A DNA stretch of 26,314 nt, taken from the IMG/VR virus record IMGVR_UViG_3300028607_002693, positions 1 through 26,314 of that record, one strand, 5' to 3'. This document shows, in pieces, positions 2,453-26,314 of this stretch. Below the pieces are notes generated by a model. The model was not told where the DNA came from. It did not search any database and worked only from the letters and a program-made list of their open reading frames with translations. Each line of letters begins with the position of its first letter. Position 1 is the stretch's first letter. Source of the stretch: a virus. The translations under genes were made by a program, and so were the position numbers.

Positions 2453-4028
2453 TAATGTTGATTTCAAACAAATAATTAGACAAGAATATATTAAATGTTG
2501 TTCTAGTCCTGTTCATTTTATGCGTAAATATTGTTATATACAACATCCCGAGAGAGGTCGTATATTATTTAATTTATACCCTTTCCAAGAAAAAATATTA
2601 AAATTATTTAATAAGCAAGACCTTTTAATAAATAAAGGAAGACAATTAGGAATTAGTACTTTAGTAGCGGCCTATTCTCTTTGGTTTATGTTATTTTTCC
2701 CTGATAAAAATATATTATGTATCGCCACTAAACAAAGTACCGCTAAAAATTTAGTTACTAAGGTAAAATTTATGTATGAAAACCTTCCTTCTTGGTTAAA
2801 AGTAGGATTTGAAGAAAAAAATAAATTAACTTTAAGATTAAAAAATGGTTCACAAATAATAGCTACTGCTGCTACTGATGATGCCGGTAGATCTGAATCT
2901 GTATCTTTACTAATAATTGATGAAGCAGCTTTTATTTCAAATATTGATAAGATTTGGCCTTCAGCTCAATCTACCCTTGCTACTGGAGGTAAATCAATAG
3001 TACTTTCAACTCCTTATGGTAGAGGAAATTGGTTTCATAAAATGTGGGTTGATGCTGAATTACAAGAAAATGAATTTATGCCTATTAAACTTCCTTGGTA
3101 CATCCACCCTGAAAGAGATCAAAAATGGAGAGATAGAGAAAATATTAGATTAAAATCAAAAAGAATAGCAGCACAAGAAAATGATTGTAATTTTTCAACT
3201 TCTGGAGAAGGGGTTTTTCATCCTGATTCTTTATTATACTATGAAAAAAATATGGTTAAAGAACCTTTATACAAAAGAGGGGCAGATCAAAGATTATGGA
3301 TTTGGGAAGACCCTGATTATACTAAAGATTATATGGTTGTAGCAGACCCTTCAAGAGGAGATGATAAAGACTTTTCAGCCTTCCATGTTATAGATGTTGT
3401 AAAAAATAAACAAGTTGGGGAATTTAAAGGTAAAATTAGTACAACTGATTTTGGAAATTTATTAGTTGGGGTAGCAACAGAATATAATAATGCTTTATTA
3501 GTTATTGAAAACTCTAATGTAGGGTGGGCTGTTGTACAAGTTGCAATAGATAGAGATTACCATAATTTATACCATTCCCCTAAAGGAAACAGTAATGCAA
3601 CACGTCATGATAAATTTTATGACAAATGGGTAAATTCAGGAAATATGGTGGCTGGATTCACTACTTCTTCTAAAACAAGGCCTATGATGATAGGTAAATT
3701 AGTGGAATATGTTAGTGAAAAAAATTTAATTATTCAATCAATCCGAACCTTAAATGAGATGGGAGTTTTTATTTGGAAAGGGGGTAGACCTGAATCAACA
3801 AAAGGATTTAACGATGATTTAGTAATATCTTTAGGAATAGCAATGTACATAAGAGATACAGCTCTTAAATTTAGACAAAGAGGAATTGAAATGACTAAAG
3901 CTGTTATTAATAATATGAGAGTAAATAGAACTTCTTATGCTGGGGCTTATAGACCCACAAAAGTAGATAACCCTTATATTATGAAACATAGTAAAGGAAA
4001 AGAAGACATCAGTTGGCTTTTAAAGTGA
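2445..4028 (+). CDS. 17: Terminase large subunit (gp17-like packaging ATPase-nuclease)
   Basis: This 527-residue protein is the motor that packages DNA into the prohead through the portal and cuts the concatemer. The adenine-binding/Q region (LYPFQEKIL) at about 44-52 precedes a Walker A of variant form, NKGRQLGIST (63-72), in which the usual Gly-Lys-Thr is Gly-Ile-Ser and the basic residue is K64 or R66. Walker B is LLIIDEA with D159 and E160. The C-terminal RNase H-like nuclease has its acidic triad in MVVADPSRGDD (D301), LLVIENSN (E355) and GFNDDLVIS (D457/D458). Length and order fit T4-like gp17, which is usually about 550-610 residues. The portal gene follows directly; the start overlaps the GIY-YIG-like stub by 8 nt. 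Confidence 0.95.
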   Translation: MSNNVDFKQIIRQEYIKCCSSPVHFMRKYCYIQHPERGRILFNLYPFQEKILKLFNKQDLLINKGRQLGISTLVAAYSLWFMLFFPDKNILCIATKQSTAKNLVTKVKFMYENLPSWLKVGFEEKNKLTLRLKNGSQIIATAATDDAGRSESVSLLIIDEAAFISNIDKIWPSAQSTLATGGKSIVLSTPYGRGNWFHKMWVDAELQENEFMPIKLPWYIHPERDQKWRDRENIRLKSKRIAAQENDCNFSTSGEGVFHPDSLLYYEKNMVKEPLYKRGADQRLWIWEDPDYTKDYMVVADPSRGDDKDFSAFHVIDVVKNKQVGEFKGKISTTDFGNLLVGVATEYNNALLVIENSNVGWAVVQVAIDRDYHNLYHSPKGNSNATRHDKFYDKWVNSGNMVAGFTTSSKTRPMMIGKLVEYVSEKNLIIQSIRTLNEMGVFIWKGGRPESTKGFNDDLVISLGIAMYIRDTALKFRQRGIEMTKAVINNMRVNRTSYAGAYRPTKVDNPYIMKHSKGKEDISWLLK

Positions 4029-13696: not shown

Positions 13697-14305
13697 ATGA
13701 AACAATTATTAATTGAAACTCACATTTTTCAACCTATTAAATCTACACTTAATGAAAGTCTTGGAGATGATAATAAAAATCTTGTAGTAGAAGGAATTTT
13801 AGCAACTGTAGAAGTTGAAAATGGGAATGGAAGATATTATTCAAGAGAACTTTGGGAAAGAGAATTGGGTAAATATGCTGAAGTAGTCAAACAAAGACGT
13901 TCAATGGGAGAGCTTGACCATCCTGAATCTGAAGTAATTAATCTAAAAAATGTATCTCATTTAATTAAAGAATTTTGGTGGGAGGGTAAAGAAATAATGG
14001 GTAAAATAGAAATTTTACCTACCCCTTCAGGTAACATATTAGCTGAATTACTTAGAAATAAAGTAGTTTTAGGAGTTTCATCAAGAGGATTAGGTTCATT
14101 AGAAGAAAGAGACGGAATAATGGAAGTTCAAGATGATTTTGCTTTACTTTGTTTTGATTTCGTATCAACACCTTCAAACCCCGGTTCTTATTTTCATACT
14201 CTGAATGAAAATAAAAAAATGAAAGATATAAAAAACACTTATAAAAAAGTTAATGAAATATTAACTGAAATATTATGTTCTAAAGGAACATGCCCAACAT
14301 TTTAA
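13697..14305 (+). CDS. 21: Prohead core protein protease (gp21-like)
   Basis: This 202-residue serine protease matures the prohead by cutting scaffold, internal proteins and the capsid precursor, mainly after Glu in (L/I)-x-E sites. GRYYSRELWERELGKYA is followed by the catalytic His in MGELDHPESE (H75) and the catalytic Ser in VLGVSSRGLGSL (S128 or S129), the herpesvirus-type order shared by T4 gp21 and HK97 proteases. Its own N-terminal region (STLNESLGDD, LVVEGIL) offers possible self-cleavage sites. It lies directly after the leader-bearing genes and before the scaffold, which fits its use of the YLAE|G sites. The length agrees with T4 gp21 (212 residues). The end overlaps the next ORF's upstream ATG. 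Confidence 0.92.
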   Translation: MKQLLIETHIFQPIKSTLNESLGDDNKNLVVEGILATVEVENGNGRYYSRELWERELGKYAEVVKQRRSMGELDHPESEVINLKNVSHLIKEFWWEGKEIMGKIEILPTPSGNILAELLRNKVVLGVSSRGLGSLEERDGIMEVQDDFALLCFDFVSTPSNPGSYFHTLNENKKMKDIKNTYKKVNEILTEILCSKGTCPTF

Positions 14306-22077: not shown

Positions 22078-22107
22078 ATGGTAAAGAAAGGAGGCAATTT
22101 TGCCTAA
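22078..22107 (+). CDS. Nine-residue leader ORF overlapping the long-fibre start
   Basis: ATG 22078 encodes MVKKGGNFA and stops at TAA 22105-22107. Its codons 4-6 contain the AGGAGG Shine-Dalgarno of the fibre gene and it overlaps the fibre TTG start in another frame. It may couple or dampen fibre translation, or may be chance. Confidence 0.35.
   Translation: MVKKGGNFA
22089..22094 (+). promoter_or_regulatory. Strong Shine-Dalgarno AGGAGG deciding the TTG start of the fibre gene
   Basis: A perfect AGGAGG lies 5 nt before TTG 22100. It is the strongest ribosome-binding site in the window, where most genes have none, and it fixes the start of the fibre gene in the absence of an ATG. Confidence 0.8.
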
Positions 22108-25100
22108 TTGGAAAAAAGTCATAGTTAAGGGTTCTGATGCTAACTTAAATTCTTTAGTAGTTAATACTAATATAACTTCCTCAAATATACTTATTTCAAA
22201 TGATTTAGATGTTACAGGTGATGTAGATGTTGATGGTCATGTTCTGATTGGAAGTGCCGATGATACAGGTCACAAACTTCATGTTGATGGTTCAATTGGT
22301 GCGTCTAATTTACATTTGCTCTCTGATGGAAGTATAACTTGGGCACACGGTGATGTGAGTATTGTTGAGGGTACTTCAGAAGATTATTCACTATCATTTA
22401 ATACATATGATGGTTCATCAAATTCAAGAGCATTATGGTTACAAGGTAATAATAACGCAACTTTTGCAGGTGATGTAACTGCTACTGGTATTATTTCAGG
22501 AGACTATTTCGAAGCTCAAGGTTATGGGGAGCTAATAGGACACTCTGGTGGACAAGTTTATTTGAAAGATAATAAAATCGGAAATGGAGGGTTAGGAATA
22601 TCTTCTGCAGCTAATCACCCTATAACATTCTGGACTGGAGGATCAGCATCTTTTACAAGCGAAAGAATGCGTATTACTAACGATGGCAACGTTGGTATCG
22701 GGACGGATGATCCGACTGGAAATTTAAACATTGTTGATACTGCTACAGCTGCTGTAAATATTGAGGGAAGTGCAGTAAAACTACAATTAGAAGCACAGGG
22801 CTCAACTCGGGCAACTGTAGGAACGACAACTTCACATCCATTTAGGCTTGTTACGAGTAATACTGAAAGATTAACTATTGAGTCTGGCGGCAATGTAGGT
22901 ATCGGAACTACTAGTCCAGCATCTATACTGGAAATAAATGGTGGCTCAGCTGATGGTGTGAAAATAATAGCTGCAAATGCTGGAACTGAATTCGTATTAA
23001 ATGCATCAACTTCTAATGGAACTAGTAGACTTTGGGTTGGAGGTACGGGCAACGTTGGTATCGGGACTACGAGTCCTAGCGCCAAGTTCCATGTTAATGG
23101 AACTGGTGTAACAAGTGGAACAACATCGGTTTTAGTAGAGAATGCTATTGGTGATGATATTTTTGAGATTACTGATGATGGTCAAATTATATTGAGAGAA
23201 TATAATTCTGTTAGTCCATTAAAGATTATTTCTTCAATAACGGATATTACTGAACCATCTATTAAAATAGATAGTAGTAAAGATAGTATAATAGATTTAG
23301 ATAGGGGATCTGACATTAGACGAAGTTATTTAGGATTTAGTACGGCTGGGACTTTAAACTGGGTTGTTGGTGGTGCGTCAACAGCTATAGGTAATGGGGA
23401 TGAGTTTTATATAGGTCAACATTATTCAGATGCCAAATTAATAATTCTGACGGGTGGTAACGTAGGTATCGGAACGACTAGTCCGGGGGAAAAACTAGAC
23501 GTTGGGGGTTACATAAAATCTAATATAGGATTTAAAGCCCTTAATTATACAACTTTACTAGAAAGCGGTAACAACACTGTATTAAGCAACACCGCTTATT
23601 ACAACATGTTGTTTAAGACTAATAACGCAGAGAGAATGCGTATTACAAATGCCGGCGACGTCGGTATCGGGACGACTAGTCCTAGTGCTAAGTTAGATGT
23701 GCGTGGAGTTGGACTCTTTGGTGATCAAACTTCATCTATTGCTGGTTCGTCACATCTACAAATTGCACGTTCCAATGACCCAATTATGTCATTCAGACAT
23801 CTTAATGCGGCGAGTACAGGACAGTCAGACTATACAAATTATTATTTCAAAGATACGGGTGGAACAGAACGTATTGGTGCAAGAATATCGGCTTACCATG
23901 CGACTACACACGCATCGCAGCCTGGTGTTGAATTGAGATTTGCTACAACACCAGATGGCGGTTCTCTCACGGAACGGCTCACAATTGATGAAGACGGCAA
24001 CGTTGGCATCGGAACGACGAGTCCTGGTCAGAAATTGGAAGTTGATGGGACAGTTCTTATTAATAATCAAACAGGCAGTAGTTACTTGCAGATTAAAAAT
24101 GCCCAAAATTATTTAGGGCATTCAGGTTCAGATTTTACGCTTCGGACAAGTGAGAGTGGAGTTGATTTGGGTATTAGTTCTAATAAGGGGGTAAGTATTC
24201 ATGTCGATAGGGGAAATGCGGGAAGTGGCGCATTCTCAATAACAACGGGCGGGACAAGTAATACTCGATTTCGGGTTGATAATGCTGGGAATGTAGGAAT
24301 TGGAACGAGTAGTCCAATTGCAAAATTAGAAATTCAGGGTGCAAATGAATCAAATATATTTTTACGAAATTCAAATACAAATGATTTTGAAAGTGGAAGA
24401 ATAAGATTTATTGAGAATATTACGTCATTTCAGGGAGGATTTATTCATTATGATGGGAGTGGTAATGTTTTCAATATAGGGGTTCATAATTCAGGTGATG
24501 AGCTAGTAAGTAGTGATGCTAATGCTATAAGTATTTTGAGAAGTTCTGGCAATGTCGGAATTGGGACTACTGCGCCGGGGGCTAAACTTGAAATCGCTGG
24601 CACAGGTAATCAAAAACTACTTGTTAATAGAACAGATGGAGATAACTTTTTTATAGACGCTCAAAATGGTCAAATAAGACTAAGAGGGTCTAGTAATATT
24701 ATTATGGGTGTTGGTGCGGATGTTATGACCGTAACTAATACAAACGTCGGTATCGGGACTACTAATCCAGGTAGATTATTGACAATAAAACCACTAACAG
24801 GTCACAAAAATCAAGGAATTAGTTTTATGGACGGTAGTAGCACAGAGCAAGCTACTGTTTCAATAGATACAACTACTAATGATTTATTGACAGCTAGTAA
24901 AGCGAATTTAAGGTTTTATACAGGTAGTACTATAGGTAACACTAATGAAAGAATGGTTATTACCACAGCAGGTAAAGTTGGTATTGGGACGACGGATCCT
25001 ACACATCCATTTTCTGTTCAAAATAAATTTATGGTAACTTCTGGGGGATCAGTTTTTATTCCAGCAGGTCAAGGAATTGGTATTGACCCTCATGCAGGAG

Positions 25101-26314
25101 GAGCTAATACAAATATATATTTTCATGCGGGACAAATTCAGATTGCTGGAACTACTGATTTTAAACATAATAATGCTAATTTTATAATAGAAAATGCTGG
25201 TAACGTTGGTATCGGGACGACGAGTCCAGGAACAGCTTTACAGGTTGGTGGTTTAGACGATGGTAGCAATTACGATATAACATTAGGTTGGAATGCAGTA
25301 GATAGCCAAGCTGTTGGAACTAAACGGTCAGCTATAACATTTAAGACAGGACAAACATCTGTAAATAATCAAGACATATATAAATGGGATATTGCGATGC
25401 TTGCGGCTCCCGCTACAGTTACTACTGAAACATTTGGATCGGATTTAGCTTTTTTAAGAACAAGTAGAGACGGAGGGGAAAATGAAGATGTTACAATGAT
25501 TCTAACAAGAACAGGAAAAGTCGGTATCGGGGAAACAACACCTTTATCAAAACTACACATTAACGGTGGTGTTGGTTCGCTTTCAACAGGTTTAACATTC
25601 GGTGATGGAGATACAGGGTTTTATGAAAGTGCTGATGATATTTTGAATGTTAATATAGGTGGTAATAATAGATTTAAATTTGAAACTAAGTGGCTTAGAG
25701 GTTCAGGAGGAAATCGAGCGCCAGCAATTTATTATAAACCTGGATCATTAATTAACCCAGTATATACATTTGAAGGTGATCTTAATACGGGAATGACAAG
25801 CTTAGGTGGTGATGAAATAAGTTTAATAACAGGGGGTGTTGAGGCGATAAACATTGATGCAAATCAAAAAGCAACTTTTGCAGGTGAAGTTTTAGTACCA
25901 AGTGGGGATTTTATATCTTGGGGAACATCTGGAGTGACTGCTATCGAAGGTAGTACGGTTTCAAATAAACTTTCATTCAGAACTTCATCAACAGAAAGAT
26001 TATTACTTAATTCTTCAGGTGCAACTTTTGCAGGTGATGTTGGTATAGGAATGACCGCAGGAACAATACCAACAGAAATTAAAGGACGTTCTTCAGATGG
26101 TAAATCATTAAGATTATGGGATAATGCAGGAACAGACATATTAGATTTATACAACAACGGAACGAGTGCTTATATTAATACAACCCATAGTGGAGGAGCA
26201 GGTAACCCATTAATTATACAAACTAATTCCATTACTGCCTTAACATTAGACACTTCCCAAAATGCAACTTTTGCAGGAACAGTATCTGTTACAGCCGCGG
26301 ATTCAATAACAATT
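22100..26314 (+). CDS. Long tail fibre with GNVGIGTTSP repeats (3' end outside window)
   Basis: The frame from TTG 22100 appears open to the last base (1405 codons): I read the first 520 or so directly and checked the reading phase at each later repeat. It starts PNWKKVIVKGSDANLN, as many marine myovirus fibres do. At least 13 copies of GNVGIGTTSP-type motifs occur (first at 22685, last a degenerate one at 26033), spaced about 53-173 residues apart. They are often preceded by ERMRIT and followed by K-L-x-V-x-G, with ATFAGDV elements near both ends. Such repeats are seen in trimeric beta-structured fibre shafts. The likely role is host recognition. The C-terminal tip and any chaperone domain lie outside. 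The repeat DNA is GC-richer than its surroundings. Confidence 0.9.
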   Translation, partial: MPNWKKVIVKGSDANLNSLVVNTNITSSNILISNDLDVTGDVDVDGHVLIGSADDTGHKLHVDGSIGASNLHLLSDGSITWAHGDVSIVEGTSEDYSLSFNTYDGSSNSRALWLQGNNNATFAGDVTATGIISGDYFEAQGYGELIGHSGGQVYLKDNKIGNGGLGISSAANHPITFWTGGSASFTSERMRITNDGNVGIGTDDPTGNLNIVDTATAAVNIEGSAVKLQLEAQGSTRATVGTTTSHPFRLVTSNTERLTIESGGNVGIGTTSPASILEINGGSADGVKIIAANAGTEFVLNASTSNGTSRLWVGGTGNVGIGTTSPSAKFHVNGTGVTSGTTSVLVENAIGDDIFEITDDGQIILREYNSVSPLKIISSITDITEPSIKIDSSKDSIIDLDRGSDIRRSYLGFSTAGTLNWVVGGASTAIGNGDEFYIGQHYSDAKLIILTGGNVGIGTTSPGEKLDVGGYIKSNIGFKALNYTTLLESGNNTVLSNTAYYNMLFKTNNAERMRITNAGDVGIGTTSPSAKLDVRGVGLFGDQTSSIAGSSHLQIARSNDPIMSFRHLNAASTGQSDYTNYYFKDTGGTERIGARISAYHATTHASQPGVELRFATTPDGGSLTERLTIDEDGNVGIGTTSPGQKLEVDGTVLINNQTGSSYLQIKNAQNYLGHSGSDFTLRTSESGVDLGISSNKGVSIHVDRGNAGSGAFSITTGGTSNTRFRVDNAGNVGIGTSSPIAKLEIQGANESNIFLRNSNTNDFESGRIRFIENITSFQGGFIHYDGSGNVFNIGVHNSGDELVSSDANAISILRSSGNVGIGTTAPGAKLEIAGTGNQKLLVNRTDGDNFFIDAQNGQIRLRGSSNIIMGVGADVMTVTNTNVGIGTTNPGRLLTIKPLTGHKNQGISFMDGSSTEQATVSIDTTTNDLLTASKANLRFYTGSTIGNTNERMVITTAGKVGIGTTDPTHPFSVQNKFMVTSGGSVFIPAGQGIGIDPHAGGANTNIYFHAGQIQIAGTTDFKHNNANFIIENAGNVGIGTTSPGTALQVGGLDDGSNYDITLGWNAVDSQAVGTKRSAITFKTGQTSVNNQDIYKWDIAMLAAPATVTTETFGSDLAFLRTSRDGGENEDVTMILTRTGKVGIGETTPLSKLHINGGVGSLSTGLTFGDGDTGFYESADDILNVNIGGNNRFKFETKWLRGSGGNRAPAIYYKPGSLINPVYTFEGDLNTGMTSLGGDEISLITGGVEAINIDANQKATFAGEVLVPSGDFISWGTSGVTAIEGSTVSNKLSFRTSSTERLLLNSSGATFAGDVGIGMTAGTIPTEIKGRSSDGKSLRLWDNAGTDILDLYNNGTSAYINTTHSGGAGNPLIIQTNSITALTLDTSQNATFAGTVSVTAADSITI
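22685..26062 (+). repeat. Array of 13 fibre motifs encoding GNVGIGTTSP-type units
   Basis: Motif starts are at 22685, 22889, 23048, 23456, 23654, 23996, 24287, 24548, 24740, 24971, 25199, 25514 and 26033. Many share DNA close to AACGTTGGTATCGGGACGAC, while the DNA between them differs. The array is irregular in spacing and lies in one frame. Confidence 0.85.

Follow-up and report, generated by a model that had tools for sequence, protein, structure and literature searches.

A capping-loop motif as a probable joint for in-frame module exchange in phage tail fibres

A long fibre gene with 13 copies of a ten-residue motif

The window, that is, the whole stretch of DNA analysed here, comprises the 26,314 nt of an IMG/VR virus record and covers a T4-like structural region. 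The major head protein encoded there matches phrog_138 and has 57% identity to the counterpart in Flavobacterium phage immuto. The last ORF of the window encodes a long fibre matching PHROG tail-fibre families (E 1e-50), whereas no family was matched in Pfam and NCBIfam searches with the part of the fibre ORF that is present. Window relatives with 65-77% nucleotide identity in the structural genes carry fibres that are unrelated to the fibre of the window. The ORF contains 13 ten-residue copies of a [GT]xVGIG-type motif; they lie at 22685-26062 and are spaced 53-173 residues apart, as the first-pass annotation had stated. GNVGIGTTSP is the commonest form of the motif and is exact in 5 of the 13 window copies. 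The features of the window are as follows:

22100..26314, + strand: long fibre ORF, 1405 aa, last ORF, running off the contig end
22685..22714, + strand: motif 1, GNVGIGTDDP
22889..22918, + strand: motif 2, GNVGIGTTSP
23048..23077, + strand: motif 3, GNVGIGTTSP
23456..23485, + strand: motif 4, GNVGIGTTSP
23654..23683, + strand: motif 5, GDVGIGTTSP
23996..24025, + strand: motif 6, GNVGIGTTSP
24287..24316, + strand: motif 7, GNVGIGTSSP
24548..24577, + strand: motif 8, GNVGIGTTAP
24740..24769, + strand: motif 9, TNVGIGTTNP
24971..25000, + strand: motif 10, GKVGIGTTDP
25199..25228, + strand: motif 11, GNVGIGTTSP; junction, with a shared module downstream and unrelated sequence upstream
25229..25378, + strand: stretch after motif 11 that is common to other phages, 150 nt compared
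25514..25543, + strand: motif 12, GKVGIGETTP
26033..26062, + strand: motif 13, GDVGIGMTAG; weak copy lacking the proline

The motif resembles the capping loop of MAT fibres

The window fibre matches the solved Bdellovibrio MAT fibre Bd2133 (8ond; phmmer E 1.8e-11) and three further PDB chains of MAT fibres (E <= 1.4e-4). According to the capping-loop passages of Caulton et al. 2024 (PMC10769870), these loops are identical in structure, sit on an intertwined trimeric beta-helix and follow the consensus V-G-G/N-pi-X-X-P-X-X-X-L. In the same passages the loop is handled as a structure, and one of the two uses of 'recombin' concerns gene deletion and not fibre evolution. The MAT consensus resembles the window-type VGIGTTSPxxKL, and VGIG...P-x-x-x-L can be read by eye in the translations of 10 of the 13 window copies, although the consensus as printed lacks a residue that stands between VG and G in the window motif. 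As far as those passages describe them, the MAT fibres of Bdellovibrio are modular with swapped tips, like the phage fibres studied here; however, they are bacterial cell-surface fibres, whereas that of the window is a phage fibre. MAT/S74-type fibres end in a C-terminal S74 chaperone or an adhesive tip, whereas the window ORF ends at the contig edge, and they have a conserved N-terminal domain of ~130 aa following a signal peptide. A signal peptide is not expected on a phage fibre. A single-sequence AlphaFold model of 24947-25600 had a pLDDT of 37, too poor to show a trimeric beta-helix. Judging from these sequence likenesses, the window motif is probably the capping loop of a modular beta-helical fibre, and the fibre is probably trimeric. 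A natural place for an in-frame joint is a loop of this kind, which closes off one block of the beta-helix.

Codon usage of the motif

The use of rare codons in the window motif, which the first-pass annotation had pointed out, is real and strong. The motif has a GC3 of 0.408. From the rest of the fibre, 0.138 ± 0.028 would be expected, and none of 2000 simulations based on rest-of-fibre codon usage reached the motif value (simulated maximum 0.238). ACG accounts for 11 of the 24 Thr codons in the motif vs 6 of 367 in the other genes, ATC for 9 of 13 Ile codons vs 33 of 503, and AGT for all 8 Ser codons vs 112 of 449, with further differences for GGC (7/39 vs 17/415), GGG (9/39 vs 40/415) and CCG (3/12 vs 2/210). 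When the remainder of this fibre serves as the reference, the GGG difference falls short of significance (9/39 vs 19/155, p 0.08). The accompanying claim that the window copies keep near-identical DNA had to be dropped: the 13 copies have a synonymous identity of 0.441 vs 0.434 ± 0.033 on resampling, a repeat test gave no excess either (0.441 vs 0.429 expected), and homogenisation of the window's own copies is not measurable. Near-identical motif DNA is common in related fibres, unlike that of the window.

A codon-blind pattern scan of IMG/VR yielded at least 206 copies from at least 121 sources, the window included. In these viral sources, the motif codons depart from the usage of their own locus at most positions, most strongly at G1 (GGC), G6 (GGG), T7 (ACG) and S9 (AGT), with no departure at P10, and the departure persists after controls for dipeptide context, GC matching and same-ORF background. 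In an independent set of at least 118 bacterial and archaeal genome loci, for which the expectations were fixed before analysis, GGC at position 1, GGG at 6, ACG at 7 and AGT at 9 were raised and P10 was flat, as expected. The expected drop in AGC was absent from the genome loci (0.20 vs 0.17), where I5 showed a mild shift (ATC 0.47 vs 0.33) and AAC at position 2 was weak and vanished against the same-ORF background.

The codon shift had also been read as a hint of transfer from a GC-richer source, and the window fibre does have a GC content outside the motif of 0.363, compared with 0.293 in the other window genes, next to a motif GC3 of 0.41. However, in AT-rich as well as GC-rich phages the GC3 excess is restricted to the motif codons and stops at the motif edges, the flanks being at background or below it; in phages with GC >= 0.52 it is still present at codons 1-4 and 6, and motif GC3 follows locus GC3 with a slope of 1.0. 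Because the excess does not reach past the motif edges and is seen in every GC class, transfer from a GC-richer donor is not supported, and recent acquisition of the fibre or the motif from such a donor is very improbable. This origin was rejected, as a GC-rich donor would not yield an excess confined to motif codons.

Breakpoints and one-sided homology at the motif

Five motif scans, together with two relative searches and 11 isolate regions, contributed to a pool of relatives with at least 648 loci, at least 645 motif-bearing ORFs and at least 2008 motif copies, a sample rather than a census. The loci are fragments, ORFs were taken stop to stop, and 20 ORFs were dropped as near-duplicates (>=97% over >=70% of the shorter), the remaining related loci not being fully independent. 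In the part of the ORFs that bears motifs, matches between the loci listed (>=90%, >=200 nt) have 26 unique breakpoints; 18 of these fall in the motif ± 6 nt, vs 3.1 ± 1.7 under the null (maximum 10 in 1000 null sets). Looser matches (>=80%, >=100 nt) place 62 of 128 breakpoints in the motif, where 15.6 are expected. Over whole ORFs (>=90%, >=200 nt) the motif holds 19 of 50 breakpoints (null 3.4), most lying elsewhere. Where an alignment ends within the conserved motif, the crossover is not placeable to the base.

After near-duplicates were dropped, flank homology between loci was one-sided in 197 copy pairs (138 upstream-only, 59 downstream-only) and two-sided in 7; because the dropping removes two-sided pairs by construction, counts from before it are also reported; they come from a smaller set, in which 107 pairs were upstream-only, 84 downstream-only and 56 two-sided. 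In the alignments, modules are 93-100% identical up to the motif and give way to unrelated sequence beyond it. In the 14 upstream-homologous pairs at >=95%, codon identity declines across the motif: it is 0.68 over the first five codons but 0.40 over the last five (CI of the difference 0.13-0.44; random 0.36/0.31). The 5 downstream-homologous pairs, in contrast, are high throughout, at 0.84 and 0.70, without a clear gradient, suggesting that the motif may travel along with the downstream module. Two ORF pairs (L168/L171 and L111/L398) differ by gain or loss of a module between motifs, and eight junction copies unite modules found in two other phages. In likeness to the consensus, junction copies do not exceed the remaining copies of the same ORF. 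Module order is therefore not fixed among relatives.

Junctions of this kind are also present between isolate phages. The Pelagibacter phage isolates Kolga and HTVC120P have 308 nt in common at 96%, starting inside the motif, and Jormungand and Kolga have 260 nt in common at 93%, starting at the motif end; in each of these pairs one partner carries a degenerate motif at the site, which the motif regex leaves uncounted. HTVC168P and HTVC131P have their first 115 nt in common at 91%, up to the motif. A counter-case is the block swapped between S-TIM5 and S-TIM61/66, the ends of which in S-TIM5 have their closest motifs 345 and 248 nt away. As the loci are mostly metagenomic contigs, the junctions might be thought to be assembly chimaeras at short repeats. 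This is extremely unlikely, given the motif junctions between isolate genomes, three loci from three metagenomes (L141, L142, L143) with fibres identical throughout, and the homogenisation also seen in isolate ORFs (see below). The clustering of breakpoints, the one-sided homology, the two cases of module gain or loss and the isolate genomes together bear out, in relatives, the earlier suggestion of recombination at the motif.

Direct evidence for exchange at a motif of the window consists of a single apparent junction, at motif 11 (ORF position 3114, counted from the stop-to-stop ORF start at 22085). The stretch following this copy is 83% identical over 129 nt to one other phage locus (L080) and 81% over 141 nt to another (L436), whereas the upstream modules of these two loci are unrelated to that of the window.

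Concerted evolution of motif DNA within fibres

Motif copies within one fibre evolve in concert. Among the matches listed, synonymous identity between copies with unrelated flanks in the same fibre was 0.584 vs 0.385 expected (280 ORFs); the motif is thus not saturated at synonymous sites within fibres, whereas between GC-matched fibres identity is as codon usage predicts, with no excess (0.369 vs 0.372). An excess was also found in cellular-genome ORFs (0.452 vs 0.341; 80 ORFs among the matches listed) and in isolate ORFs (0.566 vs 0.384; 9 ORFs), and in extreme cases (L748) a 24-nt core is exactly repeated. The within-fibre excess peaks at codons 1-5 and is gone by about -3 and +11, and the flanks are not homogenised. 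In addition, the third-base association of neighbouring motif codons declines with distance in viruses (mean z 3.0, 2.1 and 0.5), against a mean z of ~0.6 for adjacent codon pairs in the viral background, as reckoned from the background figures; the contrast is weaker in the genome set, where the Thr-Ser background alone reaches 2.6. Consensus-like codons increase with the number of copies per ORF (t 4.06). Exchange partners without other detected homology share codons at their other copies as well (0.498 vs 0.374; 28 tested of 45 pairs), a similarity that could alternatively stem from hidden relatedness or from multiple exchanges per pair.

Proposed mechanism and alternative explanations

The capping loop likely serves as a recombination joint, with its DNA homogenised in each fibre, that lets phages shuffle modules in frame. 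Exchange would occur between motif copies of the same fibre or of co-infecting phages, would be homologous via 20-30 nt of motif DNA, and would swap, insert or delete whole modules with the reading frame kept. Homogenisation would be a by-product of repeated exchange, through gene conversion or unequal crossing-over, and the limits on exchange may be set by DNA identity more than by protein compatibility. For the window, a role of the motif as a joint is suggested by the shared module, a fibre unlike those of its relatives and the GC-shifted motif, but its own copies show no measurable homogenisation.

Junctions at the loop could also arise by domain shuffling in which motif DNA has no part, with illegitimate breaks falling anywhere and selection keeping only those joints that are in frame at loops separating fold units. 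Such shuffling is in keeping with the motif being a structural boundary in MAT fibres, with junction copies of ordinary consensus likeness and with the isolate swap of S-TIM5 and S-TIM61/66 that avoids motifs. However, it predicts neither the synonymous homogenisation confined to the motif within fibres, nor the drop in codon identity within the motif, nor the more consensus-like codons at higher copy number, and is rather unlikely. Less probable still is codon selection, acting through translation speed at a fold boundary or through RNA or DNA structure, that keeps the motif special while recombination is incidental. The position-specific bias shared by the viral sources and genome loci, except at P10, would fit it, as would the use of codons rarer than expected, seen in each of the three viral GC classes (in genomes not significantly so) and a 15-nt G6-P10 stretch more stable than synonymous resamples (-2.15 vs -1.36). 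Codon-permuted controls, however, have nearly equal stability in viruses (-2.03), positions 6 and 9 do not covary (MH odds ratio 1.4 for GGG/AGT, 0.9 for GGG or GGA/AGT), and the one-sided homology is left unexplained. Between-fibre identity at the codon-usage expectation further indicates that there is no universal codon string, which counts against codon selection. A candidate hairpin, GGNAC..GTCC, was rejected: its folding exceeded that of synonymous resamples, but covariation was absent.

The recombination joint may be taken a step further, to a loop acting as a community-wide adaptor, private uniform DNA versions of which define exchange groups across unrelated genomes. This extension is tentative and somewhat doubtful; if it is true, loop DNA identity would decide which phages trade fibre modules.

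Relation to known systems and implications

In T-even phages, adhesin specificity is reportedly swapped by recombination between conserved motifs, to go by the title of the 1998 work of Tetart, Desplats and Krisch. As in that swapping, breakpoints here lie at conserved motifs, in relatives and at one window junction. However, whereas T-even coliphages have the His-box motifs of gp37, the capping-loop motif occurs in phages, bacteria and archaea, is present many times per fibre and is homogenised within the fibre. According to the relevant sections of PMC10684548, tail fibres belong to the protein classes with the most recent domain shuffling; the mosaicism in those sections is at the level of protein domains, with no shared DNA joint named, whereas the joint described here is one of DNA. 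A literature search on the motif string and its substrings found no paper, and among the papers listed for fibre recombination, modular shuffling, capping loops and concerted evolution no title or abstract opening described a capping-loop joint. Fibre swapping as an event is known; a widely shared capping-loop joint and its concerted evolution are less so.

In abundant aquatic phages, host range depends on fibres so diverse that they cannot be aligned. With a shared joint, the movement of modules among unrelated phages can be explained, and there is a handle to find, count and date such exchanges. The joint also makes it possible to test if the adaptability of phages is governed by short DNA identity at a protein loop.

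Folding and distribution of the motif

The 15-nt stretch covering codons 6-10 (G6-P10) of the fibre motif (commonest form GNVGIGTTSP) folds more stably than its synonymous resamples in both the viral set and the genome set, and a search for covariation within these five codons found none. Among the matches listed from cellular genomes (L214-L331), with taxa taken from the record titles, the motif is encoded by bacterial bins of Patescibacteria, Bacteroidota, Omnitrophota, Planctomycetes, and Bdellovibrionota, and by archaeal bins including Nanoarchaeota and Woesearchaeota.

Fibre and adhesin genes in other phages

One phage (L404) carries two separate fibre ORFs, each with its own nearly uniform version of the motif DNA. 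Between the cyanophage isolates S-TIM5 and S-TIM61/66 (L553, L554, L555), a block of ~1.1-1.2 kb has been swapped within one fibre, and the ends of this block lie away from the motif. In the adhesin genes of pelagiphage isolates, including Kolga (L557-L561), the opening 72-118 nt are 85-99% identical, after which the sequences diverge; this common 5' stretch is a predicted shared N-terminal anchor.

Repeated N-terminal peptides

Near-identical starting peptides, such as MDNFDLRKYLAEGRL, occur at several ORFs in the window (9295, 9673, 11341, 13214, and 13593), and a weaker example was listed:

Window 1100: ORF with a similar but weaker starting peptide

L124 and L125 each contain one such MDNFDLRKYLAEGRL-like start. 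The contig of L124, a relative, is 26,314 nt long, exactly as the window, yet only ~70% identical to it, and the equal size is probably coincidental. The window's ORFs with MDNFDLRKYLAEGRL-like starts lie upstream of the gene at 13697, which we take to be a likely prohead protease, and their starts presumably recall the capsid-targeting sequences of T4.
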